Shown piece after piece: positions 28,538-58,330 of a DNA stretch of 64,000 bases. Under the pieces are notes generated by a model. That model worked only from the letters and a program-made list of their open reading frames with translations, was not told the origin of the DNA and did not search any database. The position numbers and the translations under genes were made by a program. The stretch comes from Haloplanus sp. GDY1. GTDB lineage: Archaea; Halobacteriota; Halobacteria; Halobacteriales; Haloferacaceae. Positions within the stretch are counted from its first letter, which is position 1. Each line of letters begins with the position of its first letter. The stretch is taken from positions 2,081,998 to 2,145,997 of the forward strand of contig NZ_CP098514.1 of assembly GCF_023703775.1 (NCBI RefSeq). Direction: 5' to 3'.

Positions 28538-28585
28538 GGGGCACGTGGCGCGTCGCTTTTCACCGCTGCCGGCGGAGGGGGTGGT

Positions 28586-29338
28586 ATGCAGGTCTTCGCC
28601 GTTCCCGACCTCCCGGAGGTGCGCCCGGGCGACTCGCTCGCGACGCTCGTGGCCGAGCGGGTCGACCTCCGGCCCGACGACGTGGTCTGTGTCGCCAGTA
28701 CCGTCGTCTCGAAGGCCGAGGGCCGGATCGCCGACCGCTCGGAGTTCCCGGCCGGCCCGCGCGCACGCGAACTCGCCGCCGGCCTCGAACGCGCCACCGG
28801 CGAGGAGAAGGACCCCCGCTTCGCGCAGGCGGTGCTCGAGGAGAGCGCGGCCCTCCTGATGGAGGCACCCTTCCTCCTGACGGAGACGCACTTCGGCCAC
28901 GTGACCGTCAACGCGGGCATCGACCGCTCGAACGTGCGCGGGGGCGACCTGTTGCTCCTGCCCGAGGCGCCGGATGAGAGCGCCGAGCGGATCGCTGCGG
29001 GACTCGGCGCCGACCGGGTGATCGTCACCGACACCTGCGGGCGCCCCTTCCGTCACGGCCAGCGCGGCGTCGCCCTCGGGTGGGCGGGCACCCCGGCCGC
29101 CCGCGACTGGCGCGGGGAGCGCGACCGGGAGGGCCGGGAACTCGGCGTCACCGTCCAGGCGGTGGTCGACGAACTCGCCGCCGCGGCCAACCTCGTCGCC
29201 GGCGAGGGCGCGGGCGGCACGCCCGTGGTCGTCGTCCGCGACTTCGAGTTCGGCGACCACGGCGGCAGCGACGCCCTCTTCAGGGACGTCGAGGGCGACT
29301 TCGTCCGGCAGGCGCTCCACGAGTGGTCGTTCGACTGA
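28586..29338 (+). CDS. cofE: Coenzyme F420-0:L-glutamate ligase CofE
   Basis: The protein has 250 residues. It adds L-glutamates to F420-0, using GTP, to make F420-n. Family stretches are visible: VCVASTVVSKAEGR, FGHVTVNAGIDRSNV, and DTCGRPFRHGQRGVALG with metal and GTP contacts. GCTTTTCAC is centred 27 nt before the ATG. It lies directly upstream of mer, which consumes reduced F420. Confidence 0.94.
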   Translation: MQVFAVPDLPEVRPGDSLATLVAERVDLRPDDVVCVASTVVSKAEGRIADRSEFPAGPRARELAAGLERATGEEKDPRFAQAVLEESAALLMEAPFLLTETHFGHVTVNAGIDRSNVRGGDLLLLPEAPDESAERIAAGLGADRVIVTDTCGRPFRHGQRGVALGWAGTPAARDWRGERDREGRELGVTVQAVVDELAAAANLVAGEGAGGTPVVVVRDFEFGDHGGSDALFRDVEGDFVRQALHEWSFD

Positions 29339-29372
29339 CTTCGACACCGGCAGGTCCCGCGACCGACGAACC

Positions 29373-29381
29373 GCTTTTCAC
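29373..29381 (+). promoter_or_regulatory. TATA box upstream of mer
   Basis: GCTTTTCAC is identical to the cofE box, but it is centred 27 nt before the mini-ORF ATG at 29404 rather than the mer ATG at 29448, which lies 71 nt away. Confidence 0.6.
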
Positions 29382-29403
29382 CGTCCGCGCCAACCGGTTG
29401 ACG

Positions 29404-29448
29404 ATGACCGCGCGTTCGCCCACGACCCCGAGGTGCCAGCATCGCTGA
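29404..29448 (+). CDS. Mini-ORF overlapping the mer start (14 residues)
   Basis: The ATG at 29404 opens a 14-residue frame, MTARSPTTPRCQHR, whose TGA (29446-29448) overlaps the mer ATG as TGATG. Its ATG is at the exact leaderless distance from the TATA box. It may be a leader peptide whose translation delivers ribosomes to mer; expression is unproven. Confidence 0.4.
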   Translation: MTARSPTTPRCQHR

Positions 29449-30428
29449 TGTTCGGAATTGAACTCACGCCCGAACACCCGGTCGGCCGGGTGGTCGACCT
29501 CGGCACGGCCGCCGAACGCGCCGGCTACGACACCGCCTTCGTCTCCAGTCACTACAACAACCGCTCGCCGTTCGCCGTCCTCGGCCGTCTCGCGGCCGAA
29601 ACCGACGAGATCCGTCTCGGGCCGGGCGTCGTCAACCCCCTCGAACGCCACCCCGTGACCCTCGCGGGCGAGGTGGCGACCGTCGCGGAGGCGAGCGACG
29701 GCCGCGCCGTCTTCGGGATCGGTCCGGGCGACCCCGCCACCCTCGCGAATCTCGGCCTCGGGGACGACCGGGGACTGCGGCCCGTGCTCGAGGCGTTCAA
29801 GGTCGCCGAGCGGCTCTGGGACGGCGAGCGCGTCTCCCACGACGGCACCTTCGAGGCCGAGGACGCCGCGCTCAACTTCGAGGTTCCCACCCCGATTCCG
29901 ACCTACGTCGGCGGCGAGGGGCCGCACATGTGCAAGATGGCCGCGAAACACGCCGACGGCCTGCTGTTCAACGGCTCTCACCCCGCGGACCTGCGCTGGG
30001 CGCGCGAGCAGGTCGCGGACGGCCTCGCGGACCGCCTCGACGGCCTCGGGGCGTTCGACCTCGCGGCCTACGCCAGCGTCAGCGTCGCCGACGACGAGGC
30101 CGCCGCCCGCGAGGCCGCCAGGCCCCCCGTCGCCTTCATCGCCGCCGGGGCCGCGCCGCCGGTGCTCGACCGTCACGGCGTGGACCCCGACCGCGCCGAC
30201 GAGGTCGGGGCGGCGTTGAGCGCCGGCGACTTCTCGACGGCCTTCGACCGCGTCTCGCCCGCCATGATCGACGCCTTCTGCATCGCGGGCACCGTCGACG
30301 CCGTGGCCGAGCGCATGGCCGCGGTCCTCGACCACGCCGACAGCCTCGTCGTCGGGTCGCCGCTGGGTCCGGACCTCGACGCCGCCGTCGACCTCGCGGC
30401 GACGGCCCACGAGCGCGCGACCGAATAG
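29448..30428 (+). CDS. mer: F420-dependent methylene-tetrahydropterin reductase-like (LLM family)
   Basis: The product has 326 residues with a bacterial-luciferase-like TIM barrel. It begins MFGIELTPEHPVGRV, and the family signature RLGPGVVNPLERHPVTLAGE aligns with Mer, which reduces methylene-tetrahydropterin with F420H2. Haloarchaea lack methanogenesis, so a C1-folate role is inferred. The adjacent cofE supplies the cofactor. The nearest TATA box suits a mini-ORF 44 nt upstream rather than this ATG, so translation is probably coupled. Confidence 0.85.
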   Translation: MFGIELTPEHPVGRVVDLGTAAERAGYDTAFVSSHYNNRSPFAVLGRLAAETDEIRLGPGVVNPLERHPVTLAGEVATVAEASDGRAVFGIGPGDPATLANLGLGDDRGLRPVLEAFKVAERLWDGERVSHDGTFEAEDAALNFEVPTPIPTYVGGEGPHMCKMAAKHADGLLFNGSHPADLRWAREQVADGLADRLDGLGAFDLAAYASVSVADDEAAAREAARPPVAFIAAGAAPPVLDRHGVDPDRADEVGAALSAGDFSTAFDRVSPAMIDAFCIAGTVDAVAERMAAVLDHADSLVVGSPLGPDLDAAVDLAATAHERATE

Positions 30429-38418: not shown

Positions 38419-38494
38419 AGCCAAGGGCCGGATTTGAACCGGCGATGGGCGGCTCTGCAGGCCGCTGCGTTAGGCCGGACTCTGCCACCTTGGC
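38419..38494 (-). tRNA. tRNA-Cys (GCA)
   Basis: The 76-base minus-strand sequence starts GCCAAGG and ends CCTTGGCT, a full seven-pair acceptor stem plus discriminator. The anticodon loop CTGCAGA reads GCA, and the T arm carries GGTTCAAATCC. CCA is not encoded. It is last in the rRNA gene cluster but has its own GCTTAAGC box at 38519-38526. Confidence 0.95.
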
Positions 38495-38518
38495 GCACCG
38501 AACACTATCCGCGTCCGT

Positions 38519-38526
38519 CGCTTAAG
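38519..38526 (-). promoter_or_regulatory. TATA box of tRNA-Cys
   Basis: The palindromic GCTTAAGC is centred about 28 nt upstream of the tRNA 5' end, suggesting independent transcription. Confidence 0.5.
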
Positions 38527-38556
38527 CCTAGCGGTCGCTGTCGGAGTCGAACGGCG

Positions 38557-38576
38557 GCGACGGGGAGCCCCGTCGC
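38557..38576 (-). other. Hairpin between 5S rRNA and tRNA-Cys
   Basis: GCGACGGGG and CCCCGTCGC form a nine-pair stem around a two-base core. Just downstream of 5S it may mark processing or termination of the rRNA transcript. Confidence 0.45.
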
Positions 38577-38605
38577 TCGTGGGTACGAAAACTGCAGTAT
38601 GAGTG

Positions 38606-38728
38606 GTGAGGCGGCGAACCGAGACTCCCAGAGGGTCGCCCACTCCAGTACTGCTCGATACGCAGGCGGGCTTAACGTCCGTGTTCGGGATGGGTACGGG
38701 TGTGTCCCCGCCGCTCTGGCCGCCTTCA
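38606..38728 (-). rRNA. rrf: 5S ribosomal RNA
   Basis: The minus strand reads GGCGGCCAGAGCGGCGGGG at the 5' side, CCCGTACCCATCCCGAACAC in loop B/C, and closes with GGTTCGCCGCC, pairing the two ends as in haloarchaeal 5S rRNA. The length of about 122 bases is normal; the ends are uncertain by a few bases. Confidence 0.93.
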
Positions 38729-38776
38729 TGCCGACCGACGGAATCGAACCGCCGTCACACCAGGGTCGGTCCGTCC

Positions 38777-38826
38777 GAAACCGTATGTACGTGCGATCCA
38801 GTTAGCGCCTGGACCCGACAGTCAAA
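38777..38826 (-). repeat. 3' arm of the pre-23S processing stem (bulge-helix-bulge)
   Basis: This pairs with 41786-41835 over about 45 bases. In the RNA the two arms form an outer helix, a four-pair central helix (GCGC with GCGU) flanked by a UAA bulge here and a CCA bulge on the other arm, and an inner helix. That is the canonical splicing-endonuclease motif. Confidence 0.88.
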
Positions 38827-38835
38827 TCGGATCAC

Positions 38836-41757
<2,922 letters not shown>

Positions 41758-41785
41758 ATTGATGGTTGTCACACTAGTGACCCGG

Positions 41786-41835
41786 TTTGACTGTCGGGTC
41801 CAGTGGACGCCTGGATCGCACGTACATACGGTTTC
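41786..41835 (-). repeat. 5' arm of the pre-23S processing stem (bulge-helix-bulge)
   Basis: It is complementary to 38777-38826. The RNA reads GCGATCCAG, then GCGT (central helix), CCA (three-base bulge) and CTGGACCCG, matching the opposite arm with bulges of three on opposite strands separated by four pairs. Confidence 0.88.
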
Positions 41836-41969
41836 ATCACGCTCTCGTGGACGCGAGAGCGTTCGACCCTTCCCATCCGCGTTCGCACGGGATGGTGCAT
41901 CGGTCTTGCGTAGCCCAACCGAGCGCCGTCACGCACTTAAGGCGTGCGATCCGGCGCGGCGGGCTGGCA

Positions 41970-42041
41970 TGGACCCGCTGGGATTCGAACCCAGGGCGTC
42001 CTCCTTGCAAAGGAGGTGCTCTACCGCTGAGCTACGGGCCC
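41970..42041 (-). tRNA. tRNA-Ala (TGC) in the 16S-23S spacer
   Basis: The 72-base minus-strand sequence starts GGGCCCGTAGCTCAGCGG, has anticodon TGC in CTTTGCAAG, and T arm GGGTTCGAATCCC. The acceptor contains the G3:U70 pair that specifies alanine. The spacer position is typical of archaea. Confidence 0.97.
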
Positions 42042-42100
42042 GGTCCCCGAGAAGGGGGACGCGGTGGTGTGGGTGAGAGTGTGAGCCGTGGTGGTTCTAA

Positions 42101-42143
42101 GGTGCCCGGTCGATGCGGTGGTCGATCCGTGGACTGCGTGGTC
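42101..42143 (-). repeat. 3' arm of the pre-16S processing stem
   Basis: It is complementary, with mismatches, to 43713-43760. The paired blocks include GGTCGATGCGGTG and GTGGTC, enclosing the 16S gene. I could not draw a perfect bulge-helix-bulge here. Confidence 0.6.
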
Positions 42144-42180
42144 GTGTGGTGGGCCTCCCGTGTGGGAGGTCCCGGTCAGT

Positions 42181-43651
<1,471 letters not shown>

Positions 43652-55887: not shown

Positions 55888-58227
55888 CTACTCCACGCCC
55901 ACCGTCCGCTCGGCCACGAACGGCCGAACCGGCAACTCCGGGAACGACACCTCCACCCGAAAGTCGAGCGTGTCCGCATCGGCACCGAACACGCCCACCG
56001 GCACCGTCGTCACGTCGGAGAGGTAGGTCGTCTTCTCGTGCATCTCGACGCCGTTGACGGTGACGCGAACGCCGACGCGGGCGCCGCCGCCGGCGTTGCG
56101 CACCCGCACCTCGCACAGCTCGCTCTCGCCGGCGGCGACGCTCCCGGGGACGTCGTCCCAGGCCACCGAGACGTCGGGGAGGTCGGCGGCCGACTCGACG
56201 AGTCGCTCGGCGACGCCGGCCGAGATCCCGGCCCGTTCGAGTTCGTCGGCGCCCGCGGCGACCACGTCGGCGGGGCGGGAGAGGCCGCCGGTCGCGAGGG
56301 TGCTGGCGCGGCCGGCGCCGACGCCGTCGACGGCGGTGAGCGAGACGGCGTCGCGGCTGACGCCGTGTTCGATCCGGGCCTCCAGGCGGCGGGCGAGGTT
56401 GGCGGCCCGCGGGCCGGAAAAGCGGTCGAGGAACTCCCGGAGCGCCGCCAGCAGTCGCAGGGCGTTCCGGCGGATGATCCACGCGTCGCTGCGCAGGTCG
56501 GCGGGGACGGAGTCGCTCCGGCTGGCCTTGAGGATGGCGAGGACCTTCCGACCGCCGTCGTCGAGGTCGGGGACGTCGTCGCCCAGGACCGCGTCGACGG
56601 CGTCCGCTTCGGACTGCCGGGCGGAGACGGAGTCGAACTCGGCGGCCGCGGCGACGGTTTCGAGGACGGCGTCGGCGTCGATCCGGTCGCGGTCGGCCAG
56701 GTCGCGGAAGGCCCGCGCGGTCGAGAGCCGGAGGTAGTACTTCGAGGCGAGGCGCCCGAGGGGCGTGGAGTCGAGGGCGAGGTCCGATCCCATCTCGACG
56801 AACCCGCGGTCGACGAGCGATTCGAGCGTCTCGCGCACCCGGTCGCGGAGCCCCTCGAAGTCGTAGGCGGCGGGCTCCGACGCCGCGCGGACGTAGTAGT
56901 AGGTCGTCTCCAGCCACGAGAGGACGTCGTCGAGGTCGGAGAGGGTGCCCATCGCGATCTCGGCGTTGAGGTGGGCGTCGAGGTCCGCCGCGAGGTGGGA
57001 CTCGATCTCCGTGCCCTCCCGCAGGAGGCGACGGTAGCGATCCGCGTCCGAGCGGTCACAGATCACCCAGCCGTAGCCAACGTCGTCGTAGCCGGGGCGA
57101 CCGGCGCGGCCGAGCATCTGGAGCAGATCGAGCGGGCTGATGTCCACCTCGCCCTCCAGCGGGTCGTGGTACTTGGTGTCGCGGACGATCACGCAGCGCG
57201 CGGGGAGGTTGACCCCCCACGCGAGGGTGGAGGTCGAAAAGAGGACGGCGATCTTCCCCTCGCGGAACCACGTCTCGATCCGGTCGCGGTCGGCCTTCGA
57301 GAGGCCGGCGTGGTGGAAGGCCACGCCGTCGAGGACGGCCTTCCGGAGACGGTCGTCCTCCAGCGTCTTCGTCTCGTTGTGGAAGTCGTAGTCGCCGCGG
57401 GACCCGACGGGCACGTCGCGTTCGGCGAGTTCGTCGCGCGTCTTGGCGGCGGCGCTGACGGCGTCCTGTCGGGAGGCGACGAAGACGAGCGCCTGGCCGT
57501 CCTCGCGGACGTGCGGTTCGGCCAGATCGAGCGCGCGGTAGAGCCGGCGGTACTTGTCGGCAAACGAGTTCTCGCCGTGGGTGTAGGTCTTCACGCCGGT
57601 CTGCAGGTCGACGGGGCGGTAGTCGTCGCCGAAGGCGAAGGTGGCCTCGGGCGGGGCGTCGAGCCAGTCGGCCACGTCGCCGACGTTCGGCATCGTCGCC
57701 GAGAGCGCGACGAACCGTGGATCACACAGGCGGCGCAGGCGGGAGACGGTGACTTCGAGGACGCCCCCGCGGCCCTCGGAGTCGAGTAGGTGGACCTCGT
57801 CGATGACGACGCAGTCGACGTCGGTCACGAAGTCGTAGCGCCGGGAGTCGTGTTTGCGGGTGGCCGAGTCCACCTTCTCGGGGGTCATCACGAGCACGTC
57901 GGCGTGGCGGGCCCGCCGCGGGTGCAGGTCGCGCTCCCCCGTGACGACGTACACGGAGTAGCCGAGGTCCTCGAAGCGCTCCCACTCGCTTTCCTTCTCG
58001 TTCGTCAGGGCGCGCATCGGGGCGACGAAGAGGGCGGTCCCCCCCTCGCTCAGCGTCTTGCAGATGGCGAGTTCCGCCAGCGCGGTCTTGCCGCTCGCCG
58101 TCGGCGCCGACGCGACGACGTTGTGGTCGGTGTCGACGAGGACGGGCAGCGCCTCCCGCTGCATCCGGTTGAACTCCTCGAAGTCGAAGGCGTCGGCGAA
58201 CTCCGGGACGGCGTCGGCGACCTTCAC
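55888..58227 (-). CDS. Ski2/Hel308-type superfamily 2 helicase
   Basis: The protein has 779 residues. Helicase motifs include I APTASGKTALAE near residue 40, II VVIDEVHLL, III SATMPN and VI QMLGRAGRPG. A winged helix, ratchet helices and a helix-hairpin-helix (LTAVDGVGAGRASTLATGG near 595) follow. It ends with a Sec63-like beta domain (RVTVNGVEMHEKTTYLSDVT), which Hel308 lacks. It is likely an RNA or DNA remodelling helicase. The GTG at 58227 overlaps the TGA of an 18-residue mini-ORF; no promoter lies at the usual distance from the GTG itself. Confidence 0.9.
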   Translation of the reverse strand: MKVADAVPEFADAFDFEEFNRMQREALPVLVDTDHNVVASAPTASGKTALAELAICKTLSEGGTALFVAPMRALTNEKESEWERFEDLGYSVYVVTGERDLHPRRARHADVLVMTPEKVDSATRKHDSRRYDFVTDVDCVVIDEVHLLDSEGRGGVLEVTVSRLRRLCDPRFVALSATMPNVGDVADWLDAPPEATFAFGDDYRPVDLQTGVKTYTHGENSFADKYRRLYRALDLAEPHVREDGQALVFVASRQDAVSAAAKTRDELAERDVPVGSRGDYDFHNETKTLEDDRLRKAVLDGVAFHHAGLSKADRDRIETWFREGKIAVLFSTSTLAWGVNLPARCVIVRDTKYHDPLEGEVDISPLDLLQMLGRAGRPGYDDVGYGWVICDRSDADRYRRLLREGTEIESHLAADLDAHLNAEIAMGTLSDLDDVLSWLETTYYYVRAASEPAAYDFEGLRDRVRETLESLVDRGFVEMGSDLALDSTPLGRLASKYYLRLSTARAFRDLADRDRIDADAVLETVAAAAEFDSVSARQSEADAVDAVLGDDVPDLDDGGRKVLAILKASRSDSVPADLRSDAWIIRRNALRLLAALREFLDRFSGPRAANLARRLEARIEHGVSRDAVSLTAVDGVGAGRASTLATGGLSRPADVVAAGADELERAGISAGVAERLVESAADLPDVSVAWDDVPGSVAAGESELCEVRVRNAGGGARVGVRVTVNGVEMHEKTTYLSDVTTVPVGVFGADADTLDFRVEVSFPELPVRPFVAERTVGVE

Positions 58228-58280
58228 GCGATCGGCACCCCCCGTCGGGCGCGGGGCGGACGGCGGCCGTGGCGGGTCAT
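58224..58280 (-). CDS. Mini-ORF overlapping the helicase start (18 residues)
   Basis: The ATG at 58280 opens MTRHGRRPPRARRGVPIA; its TGA overlaps the helicase GTG as GTGA. GCCTTTGCC around 58303-58311 is about 27 nt before the ATG, so the mini-ORF, not the helicase, is at the leaderless position. Expression is unproven. Confidence 0.4.
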   Translation of the reverse strand: MTRHGRRPPRARRGVPIA

Positions 58281-58330
58281 GTGCGAGTCCGGGGGCCGTG
58301 TGGGCAAAGGCGTTTCCGTCGCGGGCGCCG

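Follow-up and report, generated by a model that had tools for sequence, protein, structure and literature searches.

Leaderless small ORFs coupled to a downstream gene have been described in mycobacteria (Shell et al. 2015, PMC4633059). Their stop codons overlap the next start as RTGA, the linkage is over-represented in the genome, and it is the linkage and not the peptide that is conserved. The mycobacterial system was defined by mapping of transcription start sites and ribosome profiling. In Corynebacterium, a short leaderless first cistron drives a second in an engineered bicistronic design (PMC10367133). A review names ribosome delivery as a proposed function of short upstream ORFs (PMC12548453).

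In the haloarchaeon Haloferax volcanii, 72% of coding transcripts are leaderless (PMC4983044). Haloarchaeal leadered mRNAs mostly lack a Shine-Dalgarno (SD) motif, and leader SD motifs of H. volcanii were found to be non-functional (PMC3986360). Overlapping gene pairs of this species, which have stop-start overlaps and an intragenic SD motif, were shown experimentally to be coupled (Huber et al. 2019, 2023; PMC6728339, PMC10666635). Specifically, all nine pairs tested were strictly coupled, whether they overlapped by 4 or 1 nt or lay 1-10 nt apart, and the contribution of the SD motif was variable (PMC6728339). Coupling declines within about 20 nt of gap and, in Escherichia coli, the final 15 nt of the upstream ORF are enough (PMC10666635). 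Small ORFs 5' of normal genes were also surveyed in H. volcanii (Babski et al. 2016, PMC4983044).

Here we describe a 14-codon mini-ORF upstream of mer in Haloplanus sp. GDY1, a haloarchaeon with a 3.44-Mb genome, and a class of similar mini-ORFs in the same genome. In contrast to the mycobacterial and Corynebacterium systems, the class is archaeal; it is natural, has a BRE/TATA promoter, and is predicted from sequence. Its overlaps are TGATG and ATGA/GTGA, the SD motif lies inside the mini-ORF, and one helicase gene has kept its mini-ORF in most of the genera examined within a family. The donors of the H. volcanii pairs are full protein genes, whereas those of the Haloplanus class are leaderless ORFs of 8-33 codons without a conserved product. 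Babski et al. covered only 5'-UTRs of 150-250 nt and reported low-pI peptides; by contrast, the Haloplanus mini-ORFs start at the predicted +1 of leaders of about 20-100 nt and often encode arginine-rich peptides. No archaeal description of leaderless coupled mini-ORFs was found in the literature searchable for this analysis. We consider it probable (roughly 0.8), from the comparisons below, that ribosomes enter leaderless on a dispensable mini-ORF and then terminate and reinitiate at mer, and that mer belongs to a class of genes served in this manner.

Results

Locus and promoter of mer

The locus was analyzed within a 64,000-nt stretch of the genome, hereafter the window, whose relevant features are summarized in Table 1. 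Genes were predicted in 864 kb of this genome, and the 490 of them whose upstream region was free served to train a 14-nt BRE/TATA matrix. Genome-wide, start codons lay most often 36 nt (35-37) from the beginning of the matrix, a sharp peak that gives the modal leaderless distance. The box upstream of mer, GAACCGCTTTTCAC, lies at precisely this distance from the mini-ORF ATG versus 80 nt from mer, and no other site from 29300 to 29447 exceeded 5 bits. Its nonamer, GCTTTTCAC (29373-29381, centre 29377), is 27 nt from the mini-ORF ATG, and an identical nonamer occurs at 28555-28563, 27 nt before the ATG of cofE.

Table 1. Features of the mer and helicase loci; positions are those of the window
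Feature	Position	Strand	Basis or remark
cofE, gene 5' of mer	28586..29338	+	TIGR01916, 288 bits
BRE/TATA box GAACCGCTTTTCAC of the mini-ORF/mer transcript	29368..29381	+	8.6 bits; 36 nt to ATG 29404
Predicted transcription start, on or a few nt from the mini-ORF ATG	29404	+	Inferred from box position
Leaderless mini-ORF, peptide MTARSPTTPRCQHR	29404..29448	+	14 codons plus TGA; frame and stop-start overlap in 11/12 congeners
SD-like GAGGTG within the mini-ORF, 12 nt ahead of the mer ATG	29430..29435	+	Anti-SD duplex -11.3 kcal/mol; orthologues comparable
TGATG stop-start overlap, mini-ORF/mer	29446..29450	+	Mini-ORF TGA 29446-29448; mer ATG 29448
mer, F420-dependent methylene-tetrahydromethanopterin/folate reductase, 326 aa	29448..30428	+	NCBIfam NF002619, 445 bits versus cut-off 276
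16S rRNA 3' end, anti-SD GGATCACCTCC	42181..42199	-	Anti-SD verified against the 16S gene of the window
Ski2/Hel308-like DNA helicase, partner of the second mini-ORF	55888..58227	-	Best NCBIfam matches Hel308-type, all under curated cut-offs
Second leaderless mini-ORF, peptide MTRHGRRPPRARRGVPIA, GTGA-coupled to the helicase	58224..58280	-	Box 36 nt upstream
BRE/TATA box of the second mini-ORF	58303..58316	-	9.9-10.2 bits

An earlier sequence-only reading of this DNA had described the mini-ORF, its TGATG overlap with mer, and a TATA-like box that is the only one upstream of mer, matches that of cofE, and is spaced for the mini-ORF. All of these held. Its statement that most other genes carry the box at their own start was too broad: of the 50 genes predicted in the window, 20 carry one at ≥5 bits, and many of the others lie inside operons. 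It had also taken mer to lack an SD motif; in fact, the GAGGTG inside the mini-ORF pairs with the 16S rRNA 3' end. The 16S gene belongs to an rRNA operon at 38419-43651 (minus strand) of the order 16S, tRNA, 23S, 5S, tRNA.

The mini-ORF lies directly 5' of its gene, falls within the 5-50 codons of coupled small ORFs, and overlaps the start of mer with its stop. The overlap is likewise of the size (-1 or -4 nt) that marks termination-reinitiation gene pairs. An in-frame GTG at 29433 could be an alternative start of mer; it was discounted, as it is found in some congeners only.

Conservation of the mini-ORF among relatives

By the sequence-only reading, leaderless entry followed by reinitiation would be contradicted if close relatives had lost the overlap. 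Among 12 Haloplanus genomes, the ATG, the frame and the TGATG were kept in 11. In these, the ATG is 41, 44, 47, 50, 56 or 74 nt 5' of mer, all of the same residue modulo 3, corresponding to six different lengths of 13 to 24 codons. Using the Haloplanus sp. GDY1 matrix, a box scoring 8.4-11.2 bits was found 36-39 nt before the mini-ORF ATG in all 11. An aldo/keto-reductase-like gene separates cofE from mer in five of them (L009, L010, L011, L013 and L014), the promoter and mini-ORF layout being unchanged. The 12th genome (L015) has no mini-ORF, and its cofE overlaps the start of mer by 14 nt.

Outside the genus, an upstream ORF ends on the start of mer in four Salinigranum genomes, two of which have a box 35 nt upstream. 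One of the four (L038) has TAATG in place of TGATG; the stop has thus survived a base change. An internal TAG flagged in a Salinigranum mer proved to be the natural stop. In a further genus, g11, mer is in a different neighbourhood without an adjacent cofE, and a box and ATG were present at all four loci examined: two are TGATG-coupled, one has an overlap of 19 nt, and one has an ATG in frame with mer. The in-frame leaderless ATG of the last (L041) predicts an 18-residue N-terminal extension of Mer at the place of the separate mini-ORF found in congeners.

In many other genera, it is cofE that reaches the start of mer, with a stop codon overlapping or adjoining it (TGATG, TAATG or ATGA), an arrangement that looks ancestral among the relatives compared. 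Separately, Mer of several genera (L039, L040, L053 and L066) has a short N-terminal extension with an ATG that overlaps or abuts the end of cofE, the canonical start codon having been lost. The direct cofE-mer overlap of so many relatives lends itself to another explanation, that the box is inactive, mer is read through from cofE, and the TGATG is a relic whose TG, preceding the mer ATG, may have been inherited. We regard this as very improbable: the box is kept at a near-fixed distance from the mini-ORF ATG in 11 genomes, it is present where another gene intervenes or, as in g11, where cofE is not adjacent, and a relic would leave the other genes of the class unexplained. With leaderless entry and reinitiation, the simplest history would be one in which mer receives its ribosomes through reinitiation in most lineages, a mini-ORF having become the donor where mer gained its own promoter.

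A genome-wide class of coupled mini-ORFs

We scanned 1.264 Mb of the genome for similar arrangements. Gene starts other than that of mer were assigned with a simple codon model, and conclusions rest on orthologue-supported starts. The scan yielded 34 out-of-frame upstream ATGs at 35-37 nt from a box of ≥6 bits. The start of the next gene was the exact end point of the ORF (1- or 4-nt overlap) for 14 of these 34, versus 62 of 586 (11%) ATGs without a box (Fisher p = 1 × 10−5). Analyzed by box offset, 15 coupled ATGs occurred at 35-37 nt, where the remaining offsets predicted 1.9 (Poisson p = 2 × 10−9). The linkage is over-represented in this genome, as it is in the mycobacterial class. The overlap is TGATG at mer and ATGA or GTGA at most other members, whose partners we take, from reading their sequences, to include CDC48, CheW, a fumarylacetoacetate-hydrolase-like enzyme and a nucleotidyltransferase-like protein. 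Scans of 400 kb in each of two other genera returned one strict case apiece. Since the class is sparse in these genera, we do not claim that it is highly abundant across all haloarchaea, and its abundance outside Haloplanus sp. GDY1 may be lower.

The SD duplex before the downstream start had a median of -10.3 kcal/mol in the mini-ORF class. This resembles the value for overlapping gene pairs (-10.0 kcal/mol) and is unlike that of leaderless genes (-5.4 kcal/mol; p = 3 × 10−6).

The helicase and other class members

The mini-ORF coupled to the Ski2/Hel308-like helicase is present in 12 of 12 Haloplanus genomes (44-68 nt) and in 21 of 27 other Haloferacaceae genomes; the remaining six have no ATG or GTG at the leaderless position. 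This family-wide layout with unrelated peptides makes it the best model case of the class. The helicase itself scores 268 bits against Hel308 NCBIfam models with a cut-off of 1200, far enough below that it may represent a distinct Hel308-like paralogue.

The mini-ORF of CheW was kept in 10 of 10 Haloplanus genomes and that of the CDC48-type AAA ATPase gene in 12 of 12; of the 27 Haloferacaceae genomes outside the genus, 11 have a coupled CDC48. Two boxes are conserved upstream of CDC48 (loci L251-L262 and L350-L376, upstream of match position 1501). The first serves a coupled mini-ORF of 28-33 codons, and the second, at about -53, predicts a leader of about 17 nt; because it is conserved, two promoters may be in use. 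The fumarylacetoacetase-like gene is strictly coupled with an ATG in 6 of 12 Haloplanus genomes, the others having GTG or abutting codons.

Constraint on the mini-ORFs

Complete sets of mini-ORFs were available for four genes, mer, helicase, CheW and CDC48. Through at least 13 length changes, the frame was preserved in all, for which the chance expectation is (1/3)^13 = 6 × 10−7. In close pairs, substitutions in the mini-ORFs were distributed over codon positions as 148/187/173, with no third-position excess, peptide conservation or synonymous bias. By these comparisons, what is conserved is the start position relative to the box, the frame and the stop-start overlap, and not the peptide. The linkage is thus conserved without the peptide, as in the mycobacterial class.

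These data bear on two further explanations. In one, the 44 nt before mer form an ordinary 5' leader, initiation at mer occurs de novo, either at its SD motif or in the SD-independent manner of haloarchaea, and the mini-ORF is incidental. Haloferax does have leadered, SD-less initiation (PMC3986360), and an SD motif is present before mer. Incidental mini-ORFs would nevertheless not be expected to keep their frame through the length changes above, nor to end on the next start with the precision enriched in the genome scan. In H. volcanii, moreover, SD motifs drove no de novo initiation and overlapping pairs were strictly coupled (PMC6728339). De novo initiation of mer is therefore improbable.

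In the other, the mini-ORF encodes a regulatory leader peptide, a type of control that the sequence-only reading had raised; by attenuation or arrest, such a peptide would respond to a metabolite or an amino acid. Its size and position fit this role, and mycobacteria have cysteine-rich leaderless uORFs (PMC4633059). However, the peptides vary freely among congeners without codon-position bias, there are no repeated sensor codons, and the first 107 nt of the transcript show no unusual RNA structure (z = +0.25). The conserved or sensor-codon-rich peptide and alternative RNA structures of attenuators and sensing leaders were accordingly absent here, and the same layout precedes genes as unrelated as CDC48, CheW and the helicase. 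Given a peptide without coding conservation and a leader without unusual structure, the data do not favour control by a sequence-specific leader peptide, which we judge quite improbable. The other proposal of that reading, leaderless entry with reinitiation, is supported by the retention of overlap and frame in 11 of 12 congeners and by the recurrence of the layout at other genes and in other genera.

Discussion

Based on the termination-reinitiation mechanism of Haloferax, we propose the following model. Transcription from the mer promoter would begin at the mini-ORF ATG. Ribosomes would load by the ordinary haloarchaeal leaderless route, read 14 codons and stop at the TGA, where the TGATG overlap and the upstream SD motif would aid reinitiation on mer. 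The mini-ORF would act as a ribosome-delivery device in which frame and stop position matter and the peptide is irrelevant, replacing the coupling donor of many relatives, the cofE stop overlapping the start of mer.

With a predicted 5' end, the class appears to be an archaeal, TATA-driven counterpart of the mycobacterial coupled small ORFs that is family-wide for at least one gene. That leaderless mini-ORFs handing over ribosomes represent a general, conserved initiation strategy of haloarchaea is somewhat favoured by these data. The arrangement provides a directly testable hypothesis and a conserved model gene. It would also answer the problem of how leadered mRNAs are translated by way of two mechanisms already demonstrated in haloarchaea, and might account for the translation of some genes without direct initiation. 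If the proposal is true, some of the annotated 5'-UTRs credited with SD-less initiation would in fact represent leaderless entry plus reinitiation, and a ribosome entering on a leaderless AUG could serve genes with any N-terminus or with a GTG start. The comparisons also show a reading frame that is under selection while the peptide it encodes is not, with consequences for the assignment of start sites and 5'-UTRs and for catalogues of small proteins.
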